Assembly: GCA_014360905.1 (NCBI GenBank)
Contig: JACIWW010000028.1
Coordinates: 1-36,645, forward strand
Direction: 5' to 3'
Length of the DNA: 36,645 nucleotides
Origin: Chloroflexota bacterium
GTDB lineage: Bacteria > Chloroflexota > Anaerolineae > UBA2200
The position numbers and the translations under genes were made by a program. The notes beneath the pieces were generated by a model that made no database searches, had not been told where the DNA came from, and saw nothing but the letters and a program-made list of their open reading frames with translations. How positions within the stretch are numbered: position 1 is the stretch's first letter; each line of letters begins with the position of its first letter. Positions 2,869 through 14,742 of this stretch are shown here, one piece after another.

Positions 2869-2945
2869 GGGAATGCATCCCATTTGCTGGCCCATTCAAG
2901 GAGAGCATGCCTTTGCTGTGATTGCTGTTCGGAGGGGGTAAGACG

Positions 2946-4526
2946 ATGAGACCGTCCATTACCTGCTACGGAGGTGTAGGGCAAATCGGTGGCAACAAAA
3001 TCTTGCTGGAAGATGGCGATGTGCGGCTGCTTTTGGATTTTGGCACAGCTTTTGGCCGACGGCAAGAATTTTTCAATGAGTATTTGCGCCCTCGGGCAGC
3101 ACGTGGTTTGCTGGACTTACTGGCATTGGAGTTGATCCCCCCTCTGGAAGGCGCCTATAGGACCGAACTTGCGCCCCCAGGCATGTGGGAACGTTTCCGC
3201 CGTGAACCTCTCTACCGCAACCTGCAGCGGGAGGATGCCCTCGCTGTAGATGCCGTCCTTGTCTCTCACGCCCATCTAGATCACAATGGCGATCTCTTCT
3301 GTCTGGACCCCGTTATCCCTGTCTACACTACCTGCGTTACAGCCTTTGTTGCGCGGGCTATGCAGGTCACTGGGCAAAGTGGCTTTGAGCAAGAGCTGAC
3401 CTTTGTGTGTCCCCGTGGCTGGGATGAGCAGGAGCAAGTATTGAGGACGGTGCGCAACGCGCATTACCTCGCTCGCTGCTATAGCTTCCTGGACGGCCAG
3501 CTCTGTGCGGAGGGCAGGGCTTGGTGGGAATCCACCCCGAGTGTCTCAAAGCGACTCTTGGAGCAGCCTACGAGTGCTTTTACGGGTGAGGTAAGCGGAT
3601 TAGAGGTACGGTGGTGGCCAGTGGATCACTCCGTGCCAGGAGCGGCTGCGTTTGCCGTCCGTACTTCAGTGGGTTGGGTCGGCTACACAGGTGACATCCG
3701 CTTCCATGGGCAAAATGCCTGGTTGATGGAGCGGCTTACCCAGGAGCTTGCCCAACTGGGGCTGACAGCCCTCCTCTGCGAGGGTACCCACTTGTCGGAT
3801 CAGCCTTTGGTTACAGAGCAGCAGGTTGCGGAAAATGCTTTGGATTTGGTACGCCAGGCTGAAGGGCGATTGGTGGTGGCTGACTTTGCTCCGCGCAATG
3901 TAGAGCGTCTGGACACATTCCACAAAGTAGCCAGGGAGACCAACCGTCGGCTGGCCATCCAGCCCAAGGATGCTTACCTGCTGCAAGCCATCACCTTGGC
4001 TGACTCTACCGCTTTCCCCGACCCTCTGACATTGCCGGAAGTGCTTCTCTATGCTGATCCCAAATCAGCACCTCGTGCCTGGGAAACAGAGCTACGGCGT
4101 AAATGGGCAAACCGTACGGTAGGGCCATCAGAGGTGTCAGCTCATCCAGGCGAATACATCCTCTGTTTCAGCCTGTGGGATGCCAATGATCTGCTGGATT
4201 TGCAGGGTATTGAGGGAGGAGTGTACATCTACTCCAACAGCCGGGCCTACGATGAGGAACAGGCGATAGACCTAGAACGGCTGAGGAATTGGATCCGGCA
4301 TTTCGAGTTGCGCATGGAAGGAGACCCCGATGACCCACAGCATCTATCCCTCCATGCCTCTGGCCACGCCACCGGCCCCCAGTTGCGCGACTTTGTCAGG
4401 CAGGTTCGCCCGCACACATTGATCCCCATTCATACCGAACATCCGGAGTGGTGGCAAGAGGCATTGGCAGGAACGAAAATCCAGGTTGTCTTGCCCAAAG
4501 TGGGGCAGCCTATCTTCCTGGATTGA
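2946..4526 (+). CDS. Metallo-beta-lactamase/beta-CASP (RNase J-like) hydrolase
   Basis: Probable metal-dependent nuclease of the MBL/beta-CASP group, the fold of RNase J. From ATG 2946 (residue 9 of the longest frame, chosen because GGAGGGGG at about 2932-2939 precedes it) the protein has 526 aa. The metal motif SHAHLDH lies at residues 107-113. Further on are VDHSVPGA (third metal His), GYTGDIRFHG (metal Asp), and near the C-terminus HASGHATGPQL and IPIHTEHPE, which match the late beta-CASP motifs. About 65 residues separate the first beta-strands from the HxHxDH motif, longer than in typical RNase J. Third gene after glk and pgi, 77 bases downstream. Whether it acts on RNA, DNA or a small molecule cannot be told from sequence. 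Confidence 0.8.
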   Translation: MRPSITCYGGVGQIGGNKILLEDGDVRLLLDFGTAFGRRQEFFNEYLRPRAARGLLDLLALELIPPLEGAYRTELAPPGMWERFRREPLYRNLQREDALAVDAVLVSHAHLDHNGDLFCLDPVIPVYTTCVTAFVARAMQVTGQSGFEQELTFVCPRGWDEQEQVLRTVRNAHYLARCYSFLDGQLCAEGRAWWESTPSVSKRLLEQPTSAFTGEVSGLEVRWWPVDHSVPGAAAFAVRTSVGWVGYTGDIRFHGQNAWLMERLTQELAQLGLTALLCEGTHLSDQPLVTEQQVAENALDLVRQAEGRLVVADFAPRNVERLDTFHKVARETNRRLAIQPKDAYLLQAITLADSTAFPDPLTLPEVLLYADPKSAPRAWETELRRKWANRTVGPSEVSAHPGEYILCFSLWDANDLLDLQGIEGGVYIYSNSRAYDEEQAIDLERLRNWIRHFELRMEGDPDDPQHLSLHASGHATGPQLRDFVRQVRPHTLIPIHTEHPEWWQEALAGTKIQVVLPKVGQPIFLD

Positions 4527-4560: not shown

Positions 4561-5754
4561 CTAGCGCTTCCATAGGAGCGATGCATACGCTCCTACAAGC
4601 CGAAATGGCCGGAGCAAATAGTAAAGGGGGAAAAGGGAGGAAGGCAATCGCACGAGAGCCCAATCCCCAGGTGTGGTTGTTACTGCCAGACGAATACAAT
4701 AACGGACTCTGTCCTGCCACCGTTCCTTTGCTTTGAGGTGAAAAAGGCACGATTCCATAACCCTCGGTTCCTCCTTGGTGTCGCGCAAAATCTGCTCTTT
4801 TACCTGCCTGGCAAGCAAAATGGTTGCTCCGTCGCTCTGTATTCCCTTCAGAAGCGCCTTTGGCAATGCCACGCCCAGCAGCTCATGGGCAAGGAAAAGC
4901 CCGAGAAAGAGCATGCGTTTAGCCCCCAGTGCGACAGCTTGTTTGACCACACAGTCCCAATCTAGTTCGTGACGAGCGCCGATCAACCTAGCGAGGTCAC
5001 AGACCCACCCCAACCGCGCCCAACAATGTTTAGTGCCATGAACACATAGGATCAGAAGGAGGTCCTCAGCAGAGAAAGTCTGCACCTCTCTGCCTGCCAA
5101 GGGCACTGATTCGAGGCGTTCCCACAGCCTTTCTGGAGCAAGCGGAAAGGAGAAATAATCCTCGGCAATCCGCCAATGCAGTTCCACGATGCACATTGCT
5201 TCGTGGCGTATGAGTTTGTGGGCAGATTGTGAACGGAGGTAGGCCACCTCTTGAGCACGGTTGAGTTGGAACTCAGGGCGGTATCCCTGTGCTGTGAGGA
5301 GTTCTCTGGCCTTCATAACATCCCACTCGTGCACCAAGAAGTCTAGGTCATCAAACTGTCGTAAGGCAAAATCCCCGTAAACGGAAGCTGCCAACACTGG
5401 GCCTTTGTATGGCACGGCAGGGATACTATGCTCATCGAGCCAATGCAATATCTGAAACAATTCCCCCGTGAGGAAAAAATTGCGTCGGGCATTGTTGCGG
5501 AAATGCTCTTGGAGTTGAGCTAAAGGAGCGGCGGGGATTGCTTCCGGACAGGTAGTGGCGAGGCTTTGGTATAGCAGTGGCATCATACTGTGCCGCAGCG
5601 CCGTCCGGATCAAGTACTCCCAGTCCAGTTTCTTTTGCAGCAGAATTTTGATGCGCTCAGCTCTTTCGAAGCCTTCATTCACGTGCGCACAGCAGAGCAG
5701 CAACGCCCATTCAGGACAAATGCTCACCCCTTGCAGCTCATCGAATGCAGACAA
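4561..5754 (-). CDS. Putative nucleotidyltransferase (NTP_transf_5 / PF14907-like)
   Basis: Resembles the uncharacterised nucleotidyltransferase family often found in exopolysaccharide clusters. In the longest frame (TTG at 5829, 422 aa) the core is PYKGPVLAASVYGD then RQFDDLDFLV (residues 140-166), the usual KG....Y....R..DDxD pattern of a polymerase-beta-like fold with metal-binding Asp residues; ELHWRI follows about 60 residues later. I prefer the TTG at 5754, which has GGAGAGAGG at good spacing and avoids a 38-base overlap with the upstream Wzy-like gene; it gives 397 aa. It is the last gene of a two-gene unit. Its last dozen codons are built from a palindrome (4573-4595). Transferred group and acceptor are unknown for the family. 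Confidence 0.72.
   Translation of the reverse strand: MSAFDELQGVSICPEWALLLCCAHVNEGFERAERIKILLQKKLDWEYLIRTALRHSMMPLLYQSLATTCPEAIPAAPLAQLQEHFRNNARRNFFLTGELFQILHWLDEHSIPAVPYKGPVLAASVYGDFALRQFDDLDFLVHEWDVMKARELLTAQGYRPEFQLNRAQEVAYLRSQSAHKLIRHEAMCIVELHWRIAEDYFSFPLAPERLWERLESVPLAGREVQTFSAEDLLLILCVHGTKHCWARLGWVCDLARLIGARHELDWDCVVKQAVALGAKRMLFLGLFLAHELLGVALPKALLKGIQSDGATILLARQVKEQILRDTKEEPRVMESCLFHLKAKERWQDRVRYCIRLAVTTTPGDWALVRLPSSLFPLYYLLRPFRLVGAYASLLWKR
4573..4595. repeat. REP-like palindrome forming the 3' end of the nucleotidyltransferase gene
   Basis: TAGGAGCG and CGCTCCTA are perfect 8-base inverted arms around a 7-base loop. A second small inverted repeat, GAAGC/GCTTC, lies immediately beside it (4557-4570). 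Together they sit where the plus-strand operon (ending 4526) and the minus-strand unit (ending 4561) converge, so the stems may help stop transcription from either side, although no T-run follows. The arms resemble the widespread GTAGGRGCG-type extragenic palindromes. Confidence 0.6.
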
Positions 5755-5791
5755 GACTGTCCTCTCTCCGGCTGACCACCATGACACAGGT

Positions 5792-7720
5792 TCAAGGCTC
5801 AACGCGCATCTGTGCGTTGAGTCGGTCAAGGTAGTAGAGGAGCAAGCCCTTTGGTTGAGCTCCCTTCTCTATCCCAGATTTCACAACTGCCGCGGCACCT
5901 TTGGGATCATCCTGATGCTGTTCCCGCACCAAAGCAACCAACACGACAGGCTCTGCTCGCTGGGGGAAGCGAGCTACCCAATGGGAATAAACCCAAATGG
6001 CATCCACCCATGGATCGTGCTCTTTCTCCCCCACGAGAAGCCGGCGCAGGTCCTCGAAAGGAGCATAGCGAGCAACGGCATCCCGGCCATCCAGCTCTAC
6101 TACTCTGAGGAAGGCGTCCATGGCATCCTGGTATTTACCTAACCAGCTATAGACACGTCCCAAGAGGCTATATAGGCGGGCGTTATCCGCTTGCATCCGC
6201 ACTGCTTCGCGCAGGTCAGTGGCAACTGTTGCCAGACTTGGCTCATTGTTCCTGCCAGCCTGAGCAAACAACAACAGCCTGTTGGCCTGGATGATAGACC
6301 AATTTACACGCGGGGCGTCCGGAGCAATCAAAAAGCCAGGGTACATGACTAGCAAAATCAGCAGTGCAGGAAGACAGCGGCGAGCATATGCAACCAAAGT
6401 GGATTGAATTGTAGTCCTTGGACGCAGTTCACTGGATACGCACAGTGCAGCAACCAGACCGAGCACGAACCAGATGAGCACCGATGGCTTGGCTGCCCAG
6501 ATGGTGTCCAGAAATCCAGAAGCAACATAGCTCACTATACTACCCATGGCACCTAACAGGATGGCATGTTGCTGTGCCTCCTGTCCTCTCCAGCATGTCC
6601 TAGCGGCGGCAAAGACCAGAGCGATCAGAAGCCACAAGAAAGCAAGCAACCCCGGCAGTCCCAGATCGACGGCAATTTGCAGGAACAATTGATGGGCATG
6701 AGGTTCAGGCCCGATCATGACGCCTGGGTAGAAATTGCTCTGCATCAACGGGAACATGTCCAGTCCTACGCCTGTATAGGGCATGTCGTGAATCATGGCT
6801 AGGGCGCGGCTCCATATGTCCAACCGCAGCGTTATCGCGATGCCCAGGGGGTTGGCTGGGGAGAGGAGCACGTTGGCAACCTGCGGTAGCCCATAGCGCC
6901 ACAAGCCTATGAAGAGCATCCCCAGGATAAGAGGAACGGTCATGAGCAACCAACGGTTCCAGCAGGCGCCCAGGAACAGCAAAGCGGCAGCAACCCCGAC
7001 AGCCGCTTGGAGCGATTGCGTGAGCAAAATGGTCATGCCTATCACGAAAACACTGATGCCCGACCAGAGCCGGTAGCGTTTGCTGGGGAAAAAGAGGAGC
7101 AGCGCAGCAGGCAAGGGGAACATGGTCGCCAGCGCCATGCCCATCACACGTGGATGAAATGGATTCTGATCCTGAAGGTCACGGATCAAACGGGGAAGGT
7201 GCTCGTACACCTGTGGCAAGTGGAACAGTCTGACCGCGTCCCAACCAGTCCCTACCAAAGTGAGCAGTGTCAGTAGCAAGCTGCATAGGATCAAGGCCAC
7301 TGGCAGCCGCAGCAAACGAATCTCGCTCCGTAACCCATTCGCTAGCCCATAGAAGATAGCCACGCCCAGCACGATGCGCCACAGCGCAGCCTGGCTTGAG
7401 GCCGGGTCTGTCGAAACCCAGAGGCCAATGCCAGCCATGAGGAGCAAGAGCAGGATAGGCATATCCACGCCAGTGGCTACGGTGAGCCTGCCCGTGACCA
7501 AGTAGCGGCACAGCCAGGTAAGGGCTATCACGAGCAATGCTCCCCAGGTCCAACGGCTGGGGAAAAGGAGGAAAGGAGCAGTAACTCCCAGAAACCACAA
7601 CTCGTGGTAGGAAATCCAATTGACACTGCGCTGTAGCCATAAAGAGAGGGCTGTTCCGGCGCTCAGGCTGAGTCGGTTGCCCTGACCGTCAGGCGGAGGA
7701 TGGGTATTCCCTGGGCTCAT
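5792..7720 (-). CDS. O-antigen ligase/Wzy-like polymerase with C-terminal TPRs
   Basis: Multi-pass inner-membrane protein of 642 aa with about 12 hydrophobic segments, the Wzy_C/O-antigen ligase organisation. The large periplasmic loop in the middle carries RLDIWSRALAMIHDMPYTGVG and PHAHQLFLQIAVDLGLPGLL, the Arg- and His-containing pattern of that family; family members polymerise or transfer lipid-linked glycans. After the last membrane segment a soluble tail contains TPR-like helices (NARLYSLLGRVYSWLGKYQD, then DAFLRVVELDGRD), as in many Gram-positive and Chloroflexota ligases. The ATG has AAGG about 9 bases ahead. It probably has its own promoter, being separated from the main locus by the plus-strand cassette. 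Polymerase versus protein or surface ligase cannot be decided. Confidence 0.82.
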   Translation of the reverse strand: MSPGNTHPPPDGQGNRLSLSAGTALSLWLQRSVNWISYHELWFLGVTAPFLLFPSRWTWGALLVIALTWLCRYLVTGRLTVATGVDMPILLLLLMAGIGLWVSTDPASSQAALWRIVLGVAIFYGLANGLRSEIRLLRLPVALILCSLLLTLLTLVGTGWDAVRLFHLPQVYEHLPRLIRDLQDQNPFHPRVMGMALATMFPLPAALLLFFPSKRYRLWSGISVFVIGMTILLTQSLQAAVGVAAALLFLGACWNRWLLMTVPLILGMLFIGLWRYGLPQVANVLLSPANPLGIAITLRLDIWSRALAMIHDMPYTGVGLDMFPLMQSNFYPGVMIGPEPHAHQLFLQIAVDLGLPGLLAFLWLLIALVFAAARTCWRGQEAQQHAILLGAMGSIVSYVASGFLDTIWAAKPSVLIWFVLGLVAALCVSSELRPRTTIQSTLVAYARRCLPALLILLVMYPGFLIAPDAPRVNWSIIQANRLLLFAQAGRNNEPSLATVATDLREAVRMQADNARLYSLLGRVYSWLGKYQDAMDAFLRVVELDGRDAVARYAPFEDLRRLLVGEKEHDPWVDAIWVYSHWVARFPQRAEPVVLVALVREQHQDDPKGAAAVVKSGIEKGAQPKGLLLYYLDRLNAQMRVEP

Positions 7721-7838: not shown

Positions 7839-7867
7839 TTGACTTAAATCTTATTCTATGATATAAA
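7839..7867 (+). promoter_or_regulatory. Strong sigma-70-type promoter of the 83-aa cassette
   Basis: TTGACT (7839-7844), a 17-base spacer and TATAAA (7862-7867) form a near-consensus housekeeping promoter. Expected transcription start is near 7874, leaving a leader of only about 20 bases with AAGGAG at 7880-7885 before the ATG at 7894. The -10 box lies inside a perfect palindrome. Confidence 0.72.
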
Positions 7868-7877
7868 TATATCATAG
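7856..7877. promoter_or_regulatory. Perfect 10-bp palindrome, probable operator
   Basis: CTATGATATA and TATATCATAG are exact inverted arms separated by AA. The palindrome covers the -10 box and the predicted transcription start of the small-protein gene, the classic place for a dimeric repressor to block RNA polymerase. An mRNA hairpin role is less likely because the predicted start lies inside the right arm. The regulator is not encoded next to it in this window. Confidence 0.62.
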
Positions 7878-7893
7878 ATAAGGAGATGTTTAC

Positions 7894-8145
7894 ATGGTAT
7901 CCACAGTTACGACCACTACTGTTTCAACTGTTACCACGACGGTTACCACCGTAACTTTTGCTGCTTCACTGGCATTGGCAAGCGTGTTGACGTTATTCGT
8001 GCTCCTGATGCAGAAGGAGCTGACGCTATCTGCCGAGACGCCTCGCTTGAAGGCGTTAGGGCGCGCGCTCGACGTTGCCGTCGTGCCCCTTCTGATGGCT
8101 TTTGGCATGATCGCGGTGGTGAGAATCGCTCAGGTTCTGCGTTAA
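7894..8145 (+). CDS. Small two-helix membrane protein with Thr/Val-rich N-terminus, unknown function
   Basis: I do not recognise a family. The 83-aa product starts MVSTVTTTTVSTVTTTVTTV: the first 21 residues are almost only Thr, Val and Ser, encoded by a tandem-like run of AC-rich codons. A hydrophobic segment (about 20-41, FAASLALASVLTLFVLL) is followed by a charged stretch QKELTLSAETPRLKALGR and a second hydrophobic segment (about 59-80), ending in Arg, so a helical hairpin in the membrane is likely. The ATG has AAGGAG with 8-base spacing. It is the only plus-strand gene between 4526 and 36564, has its own promoter, operator and terminator, and is therefore very likely real despite its size. 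It may sense or affect the envelope; that is a guess. Confidence 0.75.
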   Translation: MVSTVTTTTVSTVTTTVTTVTFAASLALASVLTLFVLLMQKELTLSAETPRLKALGRALDVAVVPLLMAFGMIAVVRIAQVLR

Positions 8146-8171
8146 CTGTAGCCTAAACCTGATCGGGATTC

Positions 8172-8210
8172 AAAGCCGTGCGCTCTTGTGAGCGCATGGC
8201 TTTTTGTTTC
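8172..8210 (+). terminator. Intrinsic terminator of the 83-aa cassette
   Basis: A 14-bp stem (AAAGCCGTGCGCTC with GAGCGCATGGCTTT, one G-T pair) with a 4-base loop is followed by TTTTTGTTT. It lies 26 bases after the stop of the small gene. Read on the minus strand it lacks a long T-run, so it mainly serves the plus-strand transcript, though it could slow transcripts leaving the CPBP gene. Confidence 0.88.
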
Positions 8211-8245: not shown

Positions 8246-9028
8246 CTACCATAAAAATGGCGCTACCAGAAATAGCACGATATTGGTCAAGCCGTGAGCC
8301 AAACTGACGCCCAGGATGCTACCCGTCTTTTTCACTATGTAGCCAAAGAATAGCGCTACGCCAAAGACAAAGGCCACATCCAGTACCGATTTATACCCCA
8401 CGTGGAGCACAGCGAAGAGAGCTGACACATATAGGATGCTGAAGCGATCCAGGGCGTCTATTGCTGCCCGCTGCATCACGCCACGGAAGATGAGCTCCTC
8501 GATAAAGCCAGTGCTGAACATCAGGATGAGAGCTGGCAGCCAGAGCTGCTCCCAAGTGAAAGATTGGGCCAGCGGCTTGGGGTGCAAAATGCGGTACTCC
8601 ATATATCCAAAGAGCAAGCCAACTAGGCCCACTAGAAGCTGCAGCGGTAGAGCACGCAGGTTCACGCCAACCTCATACCGGGAGAAGCGCAACGTGCGCA
8701 TGGTTAGGATCACGGTGACAAAGAGGGGCACGCTAGTAATCAGGTACCAGTACACCAGCGGAAAGTTGACCAGGGGCAGAGAGAGGCTCAACAGGCGGAT
8801 GAGCGGAGCAAAACCTAGGCTCAATAAGAGGTCACGCATGGCGAACTCCCAGGTGAACGCGGTATGCAGCAGCACAACCAACAGGACGCCATGCAGTACC
8901 AATCCCACCCGCGGTTCGAACAGGGTAGTGAGCAACTCCGCTGCCGTGATGGCAATCAAATAACCGAGGGACACCGTTATAACAGCTCTCCGATCTGATG
9001 CGCCCAAGAGCCGCGAAAACACACTCAC
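8246..9028 (-). CDS. CPBP-family intramembrane metalloprotease (CAAX-protease-like)
   Basis: Integral membrane protein related to Rce1-type CAAX proteases. The long frame begins at 9061, but GTG at 9028 overlaps the stop of the DUF1616 gene (GTGA) and has GGAGG nine bases ahead, so a 260-aa product is preferred. Counting from that start, motif 1 EELIFR is at 177-182 (EExxxR), a conserved His follows near 209 (FAVLHVG), and HGLTN at 245-249 gives the third motif HxxxN, so the catalytic set looks complete. About seven or eight membrane segments. Last gene of the long minus-strand locus. Bacterial members are linked to processing or immunity functions; the substrate here is unknown. Confidence 0.85.
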   Translation of the reverse strand: MSVFSRLLGASDRRAVITVSLGYLIAITAAELLTTLFEPRVGLVLHGVLLVVLLHTAFTWEFAMRDLLLSLGFAPLIRLLSLSLPLVNFPLVYWYLITSVPLFVTVILTMRTLRFSRYEVGVNLRALPLQLLVGLVGLLFGYMEYRILHPKPLAQSFTWEQLWLPALILMFSTGFIEELIFRGVMQRAAIDALDRFSILYVSALFAVLHVGYKSVLDVAFVFGVALFFGYIVKKTGSILGVSLAHGLTNIVLFLVAPFLW

Positions 9029-9888
9029 CGTGCGCTTTCCTCCGCTTTGACCTTCAGCCACAGCCGCAGGGAACGGTATGGCTCTGAGCCCCTGTCCCGA
9101 TATAGATAAAAGTCTATGCGCACATTATCCCCTATCTGCCTCGGAACAAAGCCCAGTACCCGTTCATCGCTTTGCCCGGATTCCAGGTGCACTGGTTCGC
9201 TCTGGCCAACGAGGCAGCCATTGCAGTACACACCGACCCAGTAGTCGGCAGGCATGCCTTCGTGGTTGACAATGCCCACGGTAACCGTAACCGGGAAACC
9301 TACGATGGCTTCGCGTGGATAGTTCTCAGCCAACCCTTCAGGTCCGAGGATATAGAACTCGGTGAGCCGTTCGCCGGGCTTGGGTGTTACAATGATGGCC
9401 GTAGCGCCAACGACGAACCCCATCAGCGAGAGGGCGAGCAGGGCGTACAGAAAACGCACGATGGGGCTCTGCGCTGCCCACCATGTTCGCGGGTCTATGC
9501 CCAGTGTCGGAAGAAAGCGTTGCTCTTCGGGCAGCCGGCTGCGACGCCACAATGCCACCCCAGAGCAGAGGGCAATCAGCGTCGCCTCGGACATGACGAT
9601 GGGCCAGAGGCGGATGCCCCAGGGAAGCGCGTCTAGCAACAAGGCGATGAGCGGGATCACCGCCACGCTCAGTCCAAAGGACAGCGCCAACCGCTCTGGA
9701 CCATCCAGGTCGTCCGCACGGGGGAAAAGCGCTGCCTGCAGCGCATAGCCCGGGACGAAGAGCACATAGGCCAGTCCCAGGAGCAAGCGCAACATGGGCA
9801 ATGGCGCGGGCAATCCCTGCACGCCGAGGGCAATGAGCAGAATCAAAACTGCCCCGAAAAATAGGATTAGGGTGAATTCGTTATCCAT
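9025..9888 (-). CDS. DUF1616-like membrane protein
   Basis: The 287-aa product has four hydrophobic segments in the first 130 residues, including LLGLAYVLFVPGYALQAALFPR, which with the following ERLALSFGLSVAV is typical of DUF1616. A fifth segment lies near 145-165 (LYALLALSLMGFVVGATAIIV). The C-terminal ~120 residues are a soluble beta-rich domain (FYILGPEGLAENYPREAIVGF; VTVTVGIVNHEG; later WVGVYCNGCLVGQ), likely outside the membrane and adhesin-like. The start ATG has no Shine-Dalgarno; the bases just upstream belong to the word repeat and include CACCTCC. The stop overlaps the CPBP start by 4 bases. Function is not established for the family. Confidence 0.75.
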   Translation of the reverse strand: MDNEFTLILFFGAVLILLIALGVQGLPAPLPMLRLLLGLAYVLFVPGYALQAALFPRADDLDGPERLALSFGLSVAVIPLIALLLDALPWGIRLWPIVMSEATLIALCSGVALWRRSRLPEEQRFLPTLGIDPRTWWAAQSPIVRFLYALLALSLMGFVVGATAIIVTPKPGERLTEFYILGPEGLAENYPREAIVGFPVTVTVGIVNHEGMPADYWVGVYCNGCLVGQSEPVHLESGQSDERVLGFVPRQIGDNVRIDFYLYRDRGSEPYRSLRLWLKVKAEESAR

Positions 9889-9995: not shown

Positions 9996-10724
9996 TCACT
10001 TGTACCCGAACACATATAGCGTCAGCTTCAAATATTCCGTCCATGTCTCACGCAGCTCATCCTGGCTCTGCCACCAGGCATCGGCGCGGTACCAGCTTGG
10101 ATTGGCTGGCTGCATGGAGATGGTAATGCCTGCGCCTTGCAAGGCGTCACGGAAGGACATGCGTGCGCGGCGGGTGTGGAAGGGGTCAGTGACGATGATC
10201 AAGGAATGGAATCTCCGCTCCGTGGCTAACTGCCGCACAGCGATGGCTTCTTCATATGTGGTTTTGACGATTTCGGGTGCCATCAGGATGCGCTCTGGCG
10301 GGGCTCCCTGCCAGATTGCCTCCGTGCGCATCAACTCCACGTAGGGAACGCGGATGCCCGGCGTATTAAGCGGCTGGTTGGTAACGATGAGCCAAGGGGC
10401 ATAGCCGGCCTGAAAGAGCTTGGCCCCATGCGCCACGCGCTGTGGGCCACCACCAGCAAGCACGACAATGGCATCGGCTGGCTGCAGCGGGTCCACACAG
10501 ACAAGAAAGCGCCCAATAGCAGGCAGCCAGAAACTGCGCAAGACCAAAAGCAAAGTGCAAGATACCAGCAGGAGACAGGAGGCCAGCGCCAGGAAACGCA
10601 AAAGACGCCCCCGCTTAGCGGGCAGGTGTGGCTTAGGGCATCTAGCCTCCTCTGGCTCGGGATGCAAAAGCGCACCAGATGCGCCAACAGGACAGCAGTC
10701 CCCCATCTTGTGTTCCTGGCTCAT
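9996..10724 (-). CDS. YdcF/SanA-like DUF218 protein, membrane-anchored
   Basis: A 242-aa protein with one membrane segment at about 40-68 (LLRFLALASCLLLVSCTLLL) after a basic, Cys-containing N-terminal tail, then a DUF218 domain. Domain motifs: PADAIVVLAGGGPQRVAHGAKLF, GYAPWLIVTN, ERILMAPEIVKTTYEEA and SLIIVTDPFHTRRARMSF. DUF218 proteins (ElyC, SanA, YdcF) act in envelope or peptidoglycan-precursor homeostasis; the exact reaction is not settled. The ATG has AAGGAGG with 6-base spacing and overlaps the stop of the heptose phosphatase gene (ATGA), so it is translated with the heptose genes. This suggests a role linked to lipid-carrier or envelope maintenance during glycan export, an inference. 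Confidence 0.82.
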   Translation of the reverse strand: MSQEHKMGDCCPVGASGALLHPEPEEARCPKPHLPAKRGRLLRFLALASCLLLVSCTLLLVLRSFWLPAIGRFLVCVDPLQPADAIVVLAGGGPQRVAHGAKLFQAGYAPWLIVTNQPLNTPGIRVPYVELMRTEAIWQGAPPERILMAPEIVKTTYEEAIAVRQLATERRFHSLIIVTDPFHTRRARMSFRDALQGAGITISMQPANPSWYRADAWWQSQDELRETWTEYLKLTLYVFGYK

Positions 10725-11275
10725 GGGCTACCTCCTTGTGCCAAGATCCACTGCACTGCTTCCCACAGGTCAGCCGCTATATAATCGGGCTGGAAATTCA
10801 GATGCTGGAAAGCCTGCTGTGCCTCGGCGCCGTAGCCGGTCAAAACCAGTACCATGCGGCAGCCCACCCGCCACCCTGCTTCCATATCAATAACCTTGTC
10901 ACCGACGACGAAGGAGCGCGTCAAGTCCAGGCTGTGCTCTTTCGCCGCCTGCAGCAGCATGCCTGGATTGGGCTTGCGGCACTCGCAGCCTTCATCCGGG
11001 CGATGGGGGCAGTAGTAAATAGCATCTAGATGCGCTCCCTGTCTGGCCAGCCGCTGCTCCAACACACGGTGGATAGCATGCACGGCGCTTTCCGGGAAAT
11101 AGCCACGCCCCACACCTGCCTGGTTAGTCACCAGGATAGCTGGCACGCCTGCTTGATTCAGGGCACGGATGGCTTCTGCTGCTTTGGGCAAGAGGCGAAG
11201 CTTGGCGGGGTTATCCAGGTATACGGCTTCCCTATTGATCGTACCGTCGCGATCGAGGAACACTGCCCATTTCAT
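10721..11275 (-). CDS. gmhB: D-glycero-D-manno-heptose 1,7-bisphosphate 7-phosphatase
   Basis: HAD-superfamily phosphatase removing the 7-phosphate from heptose 1,7-bisphosphate to give heptose 1-phosphate. The frame is open from 11371, but the true start is the ATG at 11275 overlapping the gmhA stop (ATGA), giving 184 aa, a normal GmhB length. The HAD nucleophile motif FLDRDGTIN is at 6-14, motif II VTNQAG at 49-54, and GDKVIDMEAG at 125-134. The zinc-loop Cys-x-His...Cys-x-Cys (CPH at 89-91, CEC at 97-99, then RKPNPGM) is intact and separates GmhB from HisB-like histidinol phosphatases less well than context does; the neighbours gmhA, hddA and hddC settle it. Alpha-anomer preference is expected from hddA. 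Confidence 0.9.
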   Translation of the reverse strand: MKWAVFLDRDGTINREAVYLDNPAKLRLLPKAAEAIRALNQAGVPAILVTNQAGVGRGYFPESAVHAIHRVLEQRLARQGAHLDAIYYCPHRPDEGCECRKPNPGMLLQAAKEHSLDLTRSFVVGDKVIDMEAGWRVGCRMVLVLTGYGAEAQQAFQHLNFQPDYIAADLWEAVQWILAQGGSP

Positions 11276-11847
11276 GTGCCGAACAGCTCCTGCTCGATGA
11301 GTTCGCAGATGGCGTGCCAGACGGTGATGTGCGTCTCTTGAATGCGCGGGGTGTGGTCGGACGGCACGCAAAAGCAGTGGTCTACCAGCCCCTTGAGTTT
11401 CCCGCCGCTGCGTCCGGTGAACCCCACGGTGATGGCGCCTTTCTCCTTGGCTGCCACGATGCCGTTGAGCACGCTGGGCGAGTTGCCGCTGGTGCTGATG
11501 CCGACCACGACATCGCCTTCCTGTGCCAGTGCTTCTACCTGCCGCGCAAAGACCTGGTCGAAGGAAACGTCGTTGCTCACCGATGTCAGGATGGAGCTAT
11601 TGGTCGTCAGCGCAATAGCGGGCAAGGCAGCGCGATTGATCAGGAAGCGGTTGACCAGTTCAGCCGTCACATGCTGTGCATCGGCAGCGCTGCCGCCATT
11701 GCCAAAAAGGACCACCTTGTGGCCCTCCTGCAAGGCGCGCACCAGCACTGCCGCAATTTGGGCAATGGTCCCTACACATTGCTCCAGCACTTGGCGCTGA
11801 ACCTCCATATTCTCTTGGATCGCACGGGAGATAATTCTATCTTTCAT
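11272..11847 (-). CDS. gmhA: Phosphoheptose isomerase (sedoheptulose 7-phosphate isomerase)
   Basis: SIS-domain isomerase turning sedoheptulose 7-phosphate into D-glycero-D-manno-heptose 7-phosphate, the first step of the pathway. From the ATG at 11847 (residue 12 of the longer frame) it has 191 aa, the usual length. Visible motifs: LFGNGGSAADAQHVTAELVNRF, the phosphate-binding and active-site loop; ALTTNSSILTSVSNDVSFDQVFARQV; and VGISTSGNSPSV. Near the C-terminus QETHITVWHAICELIEQ carries the His and Glu residues typical of GmhA. The 5' non-coding stretch consists of CRCAGAG words rather than a clear Shine-Dalgarno (only GAGGG 9-13 bases ahead). It is translationally coupled to gmhB downstream. 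Confidence 0.92.
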   Translation of the reverse strand: MKDRIISRAIQENMEVQRQVLEQCVGTIAQIAAVLVRALQEGHKVVLFGNGGSAADAQHVTAELVNRFLINRAALPAIALTTNSSILTSVSNDVSFDQVFARQVEALAQEGDVVVGISTSGNSPSVLNGIVAAKEKGAITVGFTGRSGGKLKGLVDHCFCVPSDHTPRIQETHITVWHAICELIEQELFGT

Positions 11848-11881
11848 TTCTCTGTGCCCTCTGCGGCTCTGCGGTTTCAAA
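11848..11881. repeat. CGCAGAG/CACAGAG word repeat before gmhA
   Basis: On the minus strand the space between hddA and gmhA reads AACCGCAGAGCCGCAGAG followed by GGCACAGAG, three copies of a seven-base word. The plus-strand string TCTGTGCCCT here recurs at about 30065-30074. It is one of the dispersed word repeats of this window and provides the ribosome-binding region of gmhA. Confidence 0.55.
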
Positions 11882-11886
11882 AACCT

Positions 11887-12903
11887 TTAGCGTATCTCCC
11901 AGGTCTGCAAACCTGCGAAGTCAAAGCCAAAATTCACCACTTGAGCGCCCATACGCTCCAGTTCCGCCGCTACAATGTGCTTGCGGTCGAATTGGCAGTA
12001 GAAGAACATGTACCCTCCGCCGCCGGCACCGGACATCTTGCCGCCCAAGGCGCCGTGCTTGCGCGCTGTCTCGTACAGTTCGTCAATGTTTGGGTCGCTA
12101 ATCTGCGCCGCCATCTTCTTCTTGTTCATCCAGCCCTCGTGCAATAGGACGCCAAAATCGTTCAGCCGCCCTTGCAGCAAGGCGTTCTTCAAGTCAATGG
12201 CGATACGCTTGAGCTCGTCCATAGCGTGCACCACTTCTTCTTGTCGCTGCACGTACCCTTGCACCTGCGTGTCAATGATGCGTGCCGAGAGGCGCGTCTT
12301 GCCCGTGTAGCACAAGAGCAAATTATAATGCAATTCATTCAGCACGTCAGGTGGCACACGCAATGGATTGACGATAGTGGCGTCGCGGTAGAACTCGATA
12401 AAGTTGAACCCCCCGAAAGTGGCGGCGTACTGGTCTTGCTTGCCGCCCTTGATGCCCAGGTCCAGCCGCTCGATTTGATACGCCAGGTCCGCGATTTCAT
12501 AGTTGGTCAGTGGCAAATGCAGCCAGTGTTTGAATAGGCCGATCAACGCCACGACCACGGCGGATGAGGAGCCCAGTCCCGACCCCGGCGGGGCATCGCT
12601 GTGCAGGAACAAGTCCAGCCCCTGTTCGCTATCCTCACGGTTCAAACGGCGGATGACCGCCTTCACCAGGTCCAAGTTGCCATCATAGATAAGCGGCTCA
12701 TTGAGCTTATAGCGGGCTACCACGTCATAGTCCAGCGAGGTGACGGTAATCTGGCGGTCGGTGCGAAAGCGCAGGGAGCCATAGGCATATTTGTCAATGG
12801 TCGTGCTGAGGACGGCACCGCCCCGCTCCGAAAGGTAGGGTTCGACGTCCGTGCCGCCGCCAGCGAAACTGATGCGCAATGGCGCTTTGCTACGGATGAT
12901 CAT
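11887..12903 (-). CDS. hddA: D-glycero-alpha-D-manno-heptose 7-phosphate kinase
   Basis: GHMP-family kinase making heptose 1,7-bisphosphate. The frame is open to 12966, but MIIRSKAPLRISFAGGGTDV at the ATG 12903 is the canonical GHMP/HddA N-terminus, giving 338 aa. The ATP loop PPGSGLGSSSA lies at 105-115 and the third GHMP motif KMSGAGGGGYMFF at 289-301. It overlaps the 3' end of the nucleotidyltransferase gene by 14 bases, so the two are coupled. The GGGTDV form and GGKQDQYAATFGGFNF segment fit HddA-type heptose kinases better than galactokinase or mevalonate kinase, and the three neighbouring heptose genes support this. Confidence 0.9.
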   Translation of the reverse strand: MIIRSKAPLRISFAGGGTDVEPYLSERGGAVLSTTIDKYAYGSLRFRTDRQITVTSLDYDVVARYKLNEPLIYDGNLDLVKAVIRRLNREDSEQGLDLFLHSDAPPGSGLGSSSAVVVALIGLFKHWLHLPLTNYEIADLAYQIERLDLGIKGGKQDQYAATFGGFNFIEFYRDATIVNPLRVPPDVLNELHYNLLLCYTGKTRLSARIIDTQVQGYVQRQEEVVHAMDELKRIAIDLKNALLQGRLNDFGVLLHEGWMNKKKMAAQISDPNIDELYETARKHGALGGKMSGAGGGGYMFFYCQFDRKHIVAAELERMGAQVVNFGFDFAGLQTWEIR

Positions 12904-13624
12904 GGGAGTTCTCACTTTTCTCTTCCACATAGCGCCGAAATCGTTCGTACCCCTCCGGCGTGCCAATGTCTACGAAAAAGCCCTGCACGGGATAGCCATA
13001 GAGGTGCCAGCTACTTGCCAGGGCAAGCGGGAAGGTTTCTCGCTCCAGGGAGACTGGCCTGCTGGGAGGGATGAGGGTCAGGATGTTTGGCTCTAGCACG
13101 TACACCCCACCGTTGACCCAGCTCGCACCGGCTCCGGATTTCTCGCGGAAGGAAAGGATGCGCCCCGCCTCGTCCAAGTCCAGTGTGCCATAGGCTGCAG
13201 CATTGTCCACTGCGACGGTAGCGATGCTCCCCAAGGTGCGTGGGTCGCTAGAGCAGCGTTGCTCGTGGAAGGCAACCAAAGCTCTCAAATCGGCTTCCAA
13301 ATACGAATCACCGTTACATACCAGGAATGTCCCCGCGAGGAGAGGTGCAGCATTGCGGATGGCGCCGGCAGTCCCCAGCAGTTCGCGCTCCACGGCATAG
13401 GCAATGTGCACACCCCAGCGCTGCCCGTCGCCAAAATAAGCCTGAATCTGCTCCGCGCGGTAGCCAATGCAGAGGACAATCTCTGTAAACCCCTGGCTCC
13501 TTATCCCCTCAATCTGATACTCCAGGAATGGCTTCCCCTTCACCTCGGCCATGGGCTTGGGGCGATCCGACACGACCGATTGCAGCCGCGTGCCCAAACC
13601 ACCAGCAAGAATGAGGGCTTTCAC
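12890..13624 (-). CDS. hddC: D-glycero-alpha-D-manno-heptose 1-phosphate guanylyltransferase
   Basis: Nucleotidyltransferase that should activate heptose 1-phosphate to GDP-heptose. The open frame extends to 13858, but the extra N-terminal sequence is low-complexity Gly/Arg/Ala and is a shadow of the GT4 gene; GTG at 13624 overlaps that gene's stop (GTGA), has AGGGGG upstream, and gives 244 aa beginning [14 protein letters not shown], the nucleotide-binding signature. RPKPMAEVKGKPFLEY (23-38), VCNGDSYLEADL (metal-binding Asp) and WVNGGVYVLEP follow the sugar-nucleotide transferase pattern. Taken alone it could be a mannose- or glucose-1-phosphate transferase; next to hddA, gmhA and gmhB the heptose assignment is well supported. 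GDP rather than ADP is inferred from the HddA-type kinase. Confidence 0.86.
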   Translation of the reverse strand: MKALILAGGLGTRLQSVVSDRPKPMAEVKGKPFLEYQIEGIRSQGFTEIVLCIGYRAEQIQAYFGDGQRWGVHIAYAVERELLGTAGAIRNAAPLLAGTFLVCNGDSYLEADLRALVAFHEQRCSSDPRTLGSIATVAVDNAAAYGTLDLDEAGRILSFREKSGAGASWVNGGVYVLEPNILTLIPPSRPVSLERETFPLALASSWHLYGYPVQGFFVDIGTPEGYERFRRYVEEKSENSHDHP

Positions 13625-14742
13625 CCCAGCACCCCCTCGTACACGGCGAGCGTCTCGAGCGCCGCCTTCTCCCACGTGAACTGTTGGGCGCGCGCTAACC
13701 CCTTCTGGCGCAGCTCCTCGCACAGCGCTGGATCGTGCAGCACACGGTGCATTGCTTCCGCCAATGCCTCCACATCGTAAGGGTCCACCAGCAGGGCGGC
13801 ATCGCCCACCACCTCGGGCAGCGACCCAGCATTGGAGCACACCACGGGCGTGCCGCAAGCCATGGCTTCCAGCGGCGGCAGGCCAAAGCCTTCATAGAGA
13901 GAAGGGAAGACGAACAAATCCGCACCGCTGTAGAGGGCAGGCAAATCTTCATCAGGGATGTAGCCGGTAAAGATGACGCGCTGGCCAATGCCCAGCTCCG
14001 CGACCGTCTGCAGGATGCGCGTGTACTTCCATTTGTGTGGGCCGACTACGACGAGCCTACGCTGTTCACCGCGTTCGCACAAGAGCGCATAGGCCTGCAG
14101 CAGCCGGCGCAGGTTCTTGCGCTCCTCCACGGAGCCGACAAAAAGGATGTAGCCTCGTGGCAGGCCATAGCGGGACGTCATTTGGCCTGTCTCTTCCCAA
14201 GGTATGGGATGATAGGAGGCATCTACACCCTCGTAGATCACATGCACTTTGTCATCTGGTATCCTCAAATAGTTCACGATATCCGTTTTCGAGACCTGGC
14301 TAACCGTAATCACGGCATTCACGCGTGGCAGCACTCTGGGCAGCCAATAGCGATAGATCAAGGTGTCGGGTAGTGCACTGTGTCCAGGGCAACTCCAGGC
14401 GAAGACATCGTGGATCGTGACGACCATGCGTGCTCCACCAACACCAAAGAGAAAAGGCGTCACGCCGGTAGGGTCGTGCACGATATCCACATGCAAGTTG
14501 TGTGCTTTCCGGGGAATAAGCACATTGCCTAGCGTCACCAAGCCCGGCAGCCTGCTGCAGCCGAGCAATGGGATGGATGGGAAAGGGGTTGCTTCTGCCA
14601 ACGGACCTACCCCGCCGGCTGCCAGCAAACGCACCTCAGGACCCTCTGGCAGCGCTGCCAGAGCGCGCGCCAGCTCCACCGTGTAGCGGCTGATGCCGCT
14701 TAAAGGTCGGTCAAGGCCGTATACGAGGATGGCAATCCTCAT
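13621..14742 (-). CDS. GT4-family glycosyltransferase
   Basis: Retaining GT-B transferase of 373 aa, cytoplasmic or membrane-associated. N-terminal [24 protein letters not shown] has the Gly-rich acceptor loop. The C-terminal half shows [18 protein letters not shown] (donor phosphate contact), [19 protein letters not shown] and the E-x7-E motif [18 protein letters not shown]. This layout ([15 protein letters not shown]) is common in mannosyl- and heptosyl-type GT4 enzymes. Being coupled directly to hddC by a 4-base GTGA overlap, it is a reasonable candidate to use GDP-heptose, but donor specificity cannot be read from sequence. Confidence 0.88.

Follow-up and report, generated by a model that had tools for sequence, protein, structure and literature searches.

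A family of tiny predicted membrane proteins inherited with a CPBP-type intramembrane protease in Chloroflexota

In a 36,645-nucleotide contig of a Chloroflexota bacterium (the whole stretch of DNA analyzed, here called the window), positions 7839–8210 raise the question of what role is served by an 83-residue protein with a string of threonines and valines at its N-terminus, encoded with signals of its own on the strand opposite to the surrounding genes. An initial annotation read the interval as a self-contained repressible cassette for a small envelope protein, perhaps a stress or phage-related effector or a moron-like insertion. The features on which our answer draws are the following.

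5792–7720, minus strand: Wzy_C (O-antigen ligase/polymerase) and TPR protein, a neighbor in about seven related loci
7839–7867, plus strand: sigma-70-type promoter, TTGACT-17-TATAAA (from the sequence; aligned promoters in genomes G001 and G002)
7856–7877, no strand: perfect 10+2+10 palindrome, CTATGATATA-AA-TATATCATAG, overlapping the -10 element
7880–7885, plus strand: AAGGAG ribosome-binding site (from the sequence; comparable purine-rich sites 5' of most relatives)
7894–8145, plus strand: 83-residue protein with two predicted transmembrane segments (TM1, TM2) and a Thr/Val N-terminal tail, of an unnamed CPBP-associated family (open reading frame, profile, alignment)
8172–8203, plus strand: predicted intrinsic terminator between convergent genes (14-pair stem and T-run)
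8246–9061, minus strand: CPBP/Rce1-type intramembrane protease, the co-inherited partner (PF02517, E 7e-17; EExxFR, H and HGxxN motifs intact)
9025–9888, minus strand: DUF1616 membrane protein, a third co-occurring component (PF07760, E 7e-65)
10721–13858, minus strand: HAD phosphatase, SIS isomerase, GHMP kinase and nucleotidyltransferase genes in a row (Pfam)

The predicted transcription unit at 7839–8210 and its palindrome

All parts of the proposed unit, i.e. promoter, palindrome, ribosome-binding site, 83-residue open reading frame and terminator within 372 bases, could be read directly from the sequence, with TTGACT at 7839–7844 and TATAAA at 7862–7867 separated by a 17-nt spacer. The gene is indeed opposed to its flanking genes: those at 4561–5829, 5792–7720, 8246–9061, 9025–9888 and onward to 13858 all lie on the minus strand, and the nearest other plus-strand gene is found at 2922–4526. 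A generic promoter scan did not list the window promoter because that scan demands a T at the last position. The aligned -35/-10 pair reads TTGACG-17-TATACT in G001, of the same genus, and TTGGCA-17-TATACT in G002; the upstream promoter match beat 95% of shuffles in 14 of 56 family members, and near-consensus promoters were seen in about a dozen members beyond these two. Comparable hairpins follow the small gene in G001, G002 and G015, and the alignments thus indicate that promoter and terminator are kept in close relatives. The leader of the gene had no match to any known RNA element. At another locus with a small gene (L022, around 4780–4880), the upstream region carries promoter-like stretches repeated in tandem as near duplicates, TTGACGAGCTTGAGATTC.. 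and TTGACAAGCTTGAGATTC...

Does the palindrome make this unit repressible? Among dinucleotide shuffles, such a palindrome arose in only 0.18% of those made from the 173-bp intergenic stretch and in 0.26% of those made from the 55-bp promoter stretch, and this local improbability, together with the gathering of promoter, palindrome, ribosome-binding site and terminator within 372 bases, is what speaks for an autonomously repressed small effector, derived from stress functions or phage and controlled by the palindrome. When the whole window was shuffled, 29% of the shuffles contained such a palindrome somewhere. Its left arm equals the conserved promoter stretch TATTCTATG, and its right arm is missing in G001, which does retain the promoter and the left arm. 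The initial annotation had also suggested searching for the palindrome elsewhere, for instance near a regulator gene, and a genome-wide search of the window genome (G000, 2.83 Mb) gave no second copy. Because the palindrome is neither conserved in G001 nor repeated in its own genome, the term 'repressible' lacks support; an operator function was rejected on the same two grounds, and the palindrome is probably incidental or species-specific. A second perfect 10+10 palindrome, CTCTGGCAGCGCTGCCAGAG, lies at 14644–14663, close to where a glycosyltransferase gene begins.

The proposed phage-related or moron-like origin did not stand either. No relative of the small protein was found in IMG/VR (pattern-seeded search), in phage records (INPHARED) or in plasmid records (PLSDB), and PHROG gave no convincing match, while the family is chromosomal throughout the phylum, being found on many chromosomes in a conserved neighborhood. 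A phage or plasmid origin of the gene was consequently rejected, and a repressed effector of the kind outlined above appears highly improbable.

The 83-residue protein and its family

Comparison with G001, the same-genus genome used for dN/dS, bears on whether the open reading frame is a gene. The two proteins are 93% identical and third positions take 36 of the 47 nucleotide differences, giving a dN of 0.050, a dS of 0.93 and a ratio of about 0.05, and not the random synonymous to non-synonymous ratio that the initial annotation had named as refuting its reading. Within codons 1–21, 11 of the 13 changed codons are synonymous, which argues that the Thr/Val string itself is selected. Judged from these substitutions, the frame is a real coding gene under selection. 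An antisense open reading frame at 7890–8108 was rejected as a gene, its low dN/dS being due to the overlap and its stop not being kept in G001.

Every one of residues 2–21 is T, V or S, as first described. AlphaFold2 returned two helices only, as a low-confidence hairpin with a pLDDT of 70, and the C-terminus of the small protein is LR or LK and not a CaaX sequence.

Using HMM profiles built first from seven and then from twenty sequences, we found the small-protein family in 32 of 396 genomes of the class and in 30 of 331 genomes of the phylum, many of the sampled genomes being draft assemblies; outside Chloroflexota the coverage consisted of a scan for close relatives. The search for homologs in Chloroflexota that had been proposed thus yielded length-conserved relatives of about 70–90 residues across the phylum, and those returned by the protein search came from records titled Chloroflexota, Chloroflexi or Thermoflexia. 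The distribution is patchy over many families within the phylum, and both the small gene and its protease are missing from three genomes within the window's own family.

Members share their length of about 70–90 residues, two hydrophobic segments, a K-E pair after TM1, and an Asn and a near-invariant Pro in TM2, within a conserved motif LN(V/I)A(I/V)xPLLxxF; position 65 is Pro in 20 of 20 aligned members, and position 60 is Asn in the family and Asp in the window's own group. The inter-helix loop contains on average 3.65 Lys+Arg and 2.0 Asp+Glu, and the N-terminal tail 0.05 Lys+Arg. Positively charged loops of membrane proteins are typically cytoplasmic (the positive-inside rule), and by this rule the tail is likely to be outside and the loop in the cytoplasm.

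The family had no convincing match in Pfam, NCBIfam or PDB, with scattered sub-threshold matches only. Identities as TM140, holin-X, T4SS pilin or bacteriocin IId were rejected, these matches being sub-threshold, mostly confined to a single member each and taken as noise from membrane composition. The view of a small envelope protein with two transmembrane segments that lacks a described family and whose gene has a promoter and a terminator of its own is borne out, and the profile and alignment evidence points to a family, not named before, of very small membrane proteins with two helices in Chloroflexota. The related statement, that no described family has this N-terminus, holds as regards known families, but the tail decays in divergent members: the core group begins M(V/I)STVTTTTV(S/T)TVT, and in the alignments the Thr/Val tail is kept as a hallmark within the core subfamily, becomes degenerate elsewhere and does not serve to define the family as a whole.

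The divergent members in G128, G312, G243, G216 and G467 lie in other loci, with no CPBP gene. At loci L071, L076, L078 and L118, divergent members directly follow genes for a polytopic protein of about 616–668 residues and a protein of about 120 residues (PGMAWVRLL-type), again with no CPBP gene nearby; at L139, a similar protein of about 120 residues is instead encoded directly 5' of the CPBP gene. G172 (L052, L080) has two small-gene paralogs, one of them on a short contig with no CPBP gene in view.

Co-inheritance with one subfamily of CPBP proteases

When the neighbors of 31 members were clustered, one family, that of the gene at 8246–9061, adjoined most of them. The initial annotation had made no mention of co-inheritance with this convergent CPBP protease or with DUF1616, which was found here. 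The window protease scored 61.9 bits against PF02517 (cut-off 22.4) and carries EELIFR and HGLTN motifs; E188, E189, R193, H220, H256 and N260 (window numbering) are invariant among nine aligned members, and EExxFR-type and HGxN/HGxxN-type motifs were present in nearly all pairs by simple pattern matching. The catalytic motifs of the subfamily are intact by alignment, and its activity is predicted. The CPBP partner often has an extra N-terminal domain, TPR-like by eye (the set L053, L058–L064, L067, L069 and L073), that of L069 appearing response-regulator-like, and the proteases of L061 and L073 seem to have a C-terminal Pro/Thr linker and an SH3-like part. Long frames at G597, G216 and G584 were considered as natural fusions of small protein and protease; they looked like open-frame extensions and none was a CPBP fusion.

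A profile for the protease subfamily, for which proteases encoded next to the small gene were the training set and which is thereby biased towards linked copies, matched 28 of the 396 class genomes, 27 of them having the small gene. Of these 396, 27 had both genes, five the small gene only and one the protease only; among the 331 phylum genomes the corresponding numbers were 25, five and three. Fisher P values for co-occurrence, with shared ancestry ignored, were 1e-35 (class) and 2e-29 (phylum). The sole class genome with the protease only, G389, has a broken copy with an internal stop, matched over positions 8–174 of 262, and among the protease-only phylum genomes G591 runs into the end of a contig and the assembly of G396 has a completeness of 66%. 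The tie concerns one CPBP subfamily, since relatives devoid of the module still carry one to five other CPBP genes and G413 has just the subfamily member; six CPBP genes are found in the window genome, and CPBP proteases are very common in prokaryotes, PF02517 being present in 11 of 14 control genomes.

In 42 of the 45 loci with both genes these were less than 1.5 kb apart, and in 30 less than 300 bp, with 26 pairs convergent, eight in tandem with the small gene first, seven in tandem with the protease first and one divergent. As orientation varies while proximity is kept, we argue for a functional tie rather than for one inherited arrangement. Distance matrices of small protein and protease were correlated (Mantel r 0.82 for 38 pairs, compared with at most 0.36 in 5000 permutations), a result that joint inheritance and co-evolution would both give and that does not separate the two. 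The small family is inherited with, and usually encoded beside, one CPBP subfamily across Chloroflexota.

Could the linkage reflect the glycan loci in which the pair often resides? The genes at 10721–13858 look, from their Pfam matches, like GDP-heptose synthesis and hence a surface-glycan context, and glycan genes surround the pair in the window and in many loci of the class. Of 30 genomes with the module 27 had DUF1616, compared with 0 of 30 without it, the latter being a non-random set of close relatives and listed class members; among the 14 control genomes only Haloferax volcanii and Methanosarcina acetivorans had it. Both observations are compatible with a small protein that is an independent part of a machine assembling surface glycans or surface proteins (DUF1616, Wzy-like), its CPBP linkage stemming from joint transfer of the locus, and some of the linkage could be such hitch-hiking, since in many genomes both genes lie in transferable surface-polysaccharide loci. 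However, in the closed 1.4–1.5 Mb genomes G401 and G413 the coding matches of the pair are 4 nt apart and stand among housekeeping genes that include site-2-protease homologs and one resembling thiC, by eye with no glycan genes, and DUF1616 is unlinked and far away. The pair is thus the minimal unit, and with proximity maintained through changes of orientation we consider an independent assembly component improbable. A link to exosortases was rejected, as PF09721 was above cut-off in only one of ten genomes examined.

A possible client of the protease and comparison with known systems

A functional partnership between small protein and protease, be it as client or as subunit, is likely. Tentatively, and with somewhat less than even confidence, we favor the 83-residue protein as a dedicated client of the convergent CPBP glutamic intramembrane protease in cell-envelope biogenesis, usually together with DUF1616. 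We infer topology, physical interaction, cleavage and envelope role, which would combine as follows. The small protein would be made from its own promoter and inserted in the membrane with the uncharged Thr/Val tail outside, followed by TM1, a positive cytoplasmic loop of about 18 residues, TM2 and an outside C-terminus; the protease would recognize and probably cut it at TM2, where the helix, with its conserved Asn and Pro, would be looser, and the exposed tail would be the working part.

Small membrane adaptors are known to position substrates for proteases or to stabilize them, and it is quite possible, if less probable, that the small protein is such a non-catalytic subunit, with substrates among surface or glycan-machinery proteins encoded elsewhere. 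The near-obligate co-occurrence and the co-variation of distances would suit this, and so would the fact that both helices are conserved along with the K-E pair and the TM2 motif, as in an interface; the high conservation of both helices leans that way. Yet the small gene usually has its own, often near-consensus promoter on the opposite strand and not within one operon, and in some genomes it occurs without the protease. Our narrow lean is to the client, because the small gene is sometimes alone, the protease hardly ever, and the promoter is independent; the separate near-consensus promoters with strong ribosome-binding sites in many members, and P65 (20/20) with N/D60 in TM2, were also counted in its favor, as was the precedent of MrtJ with one JDVT-CTERM target (PMC11980579). 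Weighing against the client are the divergent members in loci devoid of a CPBP gene, the training bias of the protease profile, the possible hitch-hiking in surface-polysaccharide loci and the AlphaFold2 model with no more than two helices at a pLDDT of 70.

It is conceivable, though rather doubtful, that these genes form a new envelope-processing system spread over Chloroflexota, including small genomes in which the pair is separate from glycan genes, and that a CPBP protease, a two-helix client exposing a Thr/Val tail, and DUF1616 would possibly constitute a pathway for substrate-specific sorting or peptide release that differs from C-terminal-tag sortases. With its single small co-inherited partner, one CPBP subfamily can be tested directly by simple co-expression, and the joint profile of small protein, CPBP and DUF1616 offers a first functional handle on DUF1616, a name mentioned in only one of the open-access papers searched. 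No description of the small-protein/CPBP pair was found in open-access papers, and prokaryotic CPBP proteases are, according to the authors of one study, largely unexplored (PMC11980579).

Among known systems, the type II CAAX prenyl endopeptidase Rce1 belongs to the same Pfam family (PF02517) as the window protease, but a prenylated CaaX substrate is not apparent here, the small protein ending in LR or LK. LnsA and LnsB of Staphylococcus form a two-component system for lipoprotein N-acylation (PMC7387801), likewise with a CPBP-like membrane protein that requires a second gene product; however, LnsA belongs to the NlpC/P60 enzymes and the CPBP catalytic residues are missing from LnsB, whereas the motifs are intact in the window protease and its partner is a two-TM peptide. 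The myxosortase MrtX, acting on MYXO-CTERM proteins (PMC11980579), shares the CPBP catalytic motifs and probably an envelope role, but the window protease scored 16.5 bits against a cut-off of 180, no tagged set of surface proteins was identified, and the small protein has no invariant Cys. In the family alignments a target signature of MrtJ or MYXO type was absent, with no Cys signature, two hydrophobic segments and a C-terminus that is not Arg-rich. The closest parallel in layout is MrtJ with its single JDVT-CTERM target, a conserved two-gene neighborhood of sorting enzyme and target (PMC11980579), in which a CPBP-family protease likewise occurs, in a sporadic distribution, together with a single dedicated gene. 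The window module differs in being found in Chloroflexota and mostly convergent, and its small protein has two TM helices in place of the C-terminal tripartite tag of Cys motif, TM and Arg-rich segment. As the protease matches the MrtJ model only weakly and below its cut-off (NF033192; E 1e-8, 35.8 bits, cut-off 75) and no C-terminal tag is present in the small protein, the pair does not belong to MrtJ/JDVT-CTERM, though it may work in a similar manner.
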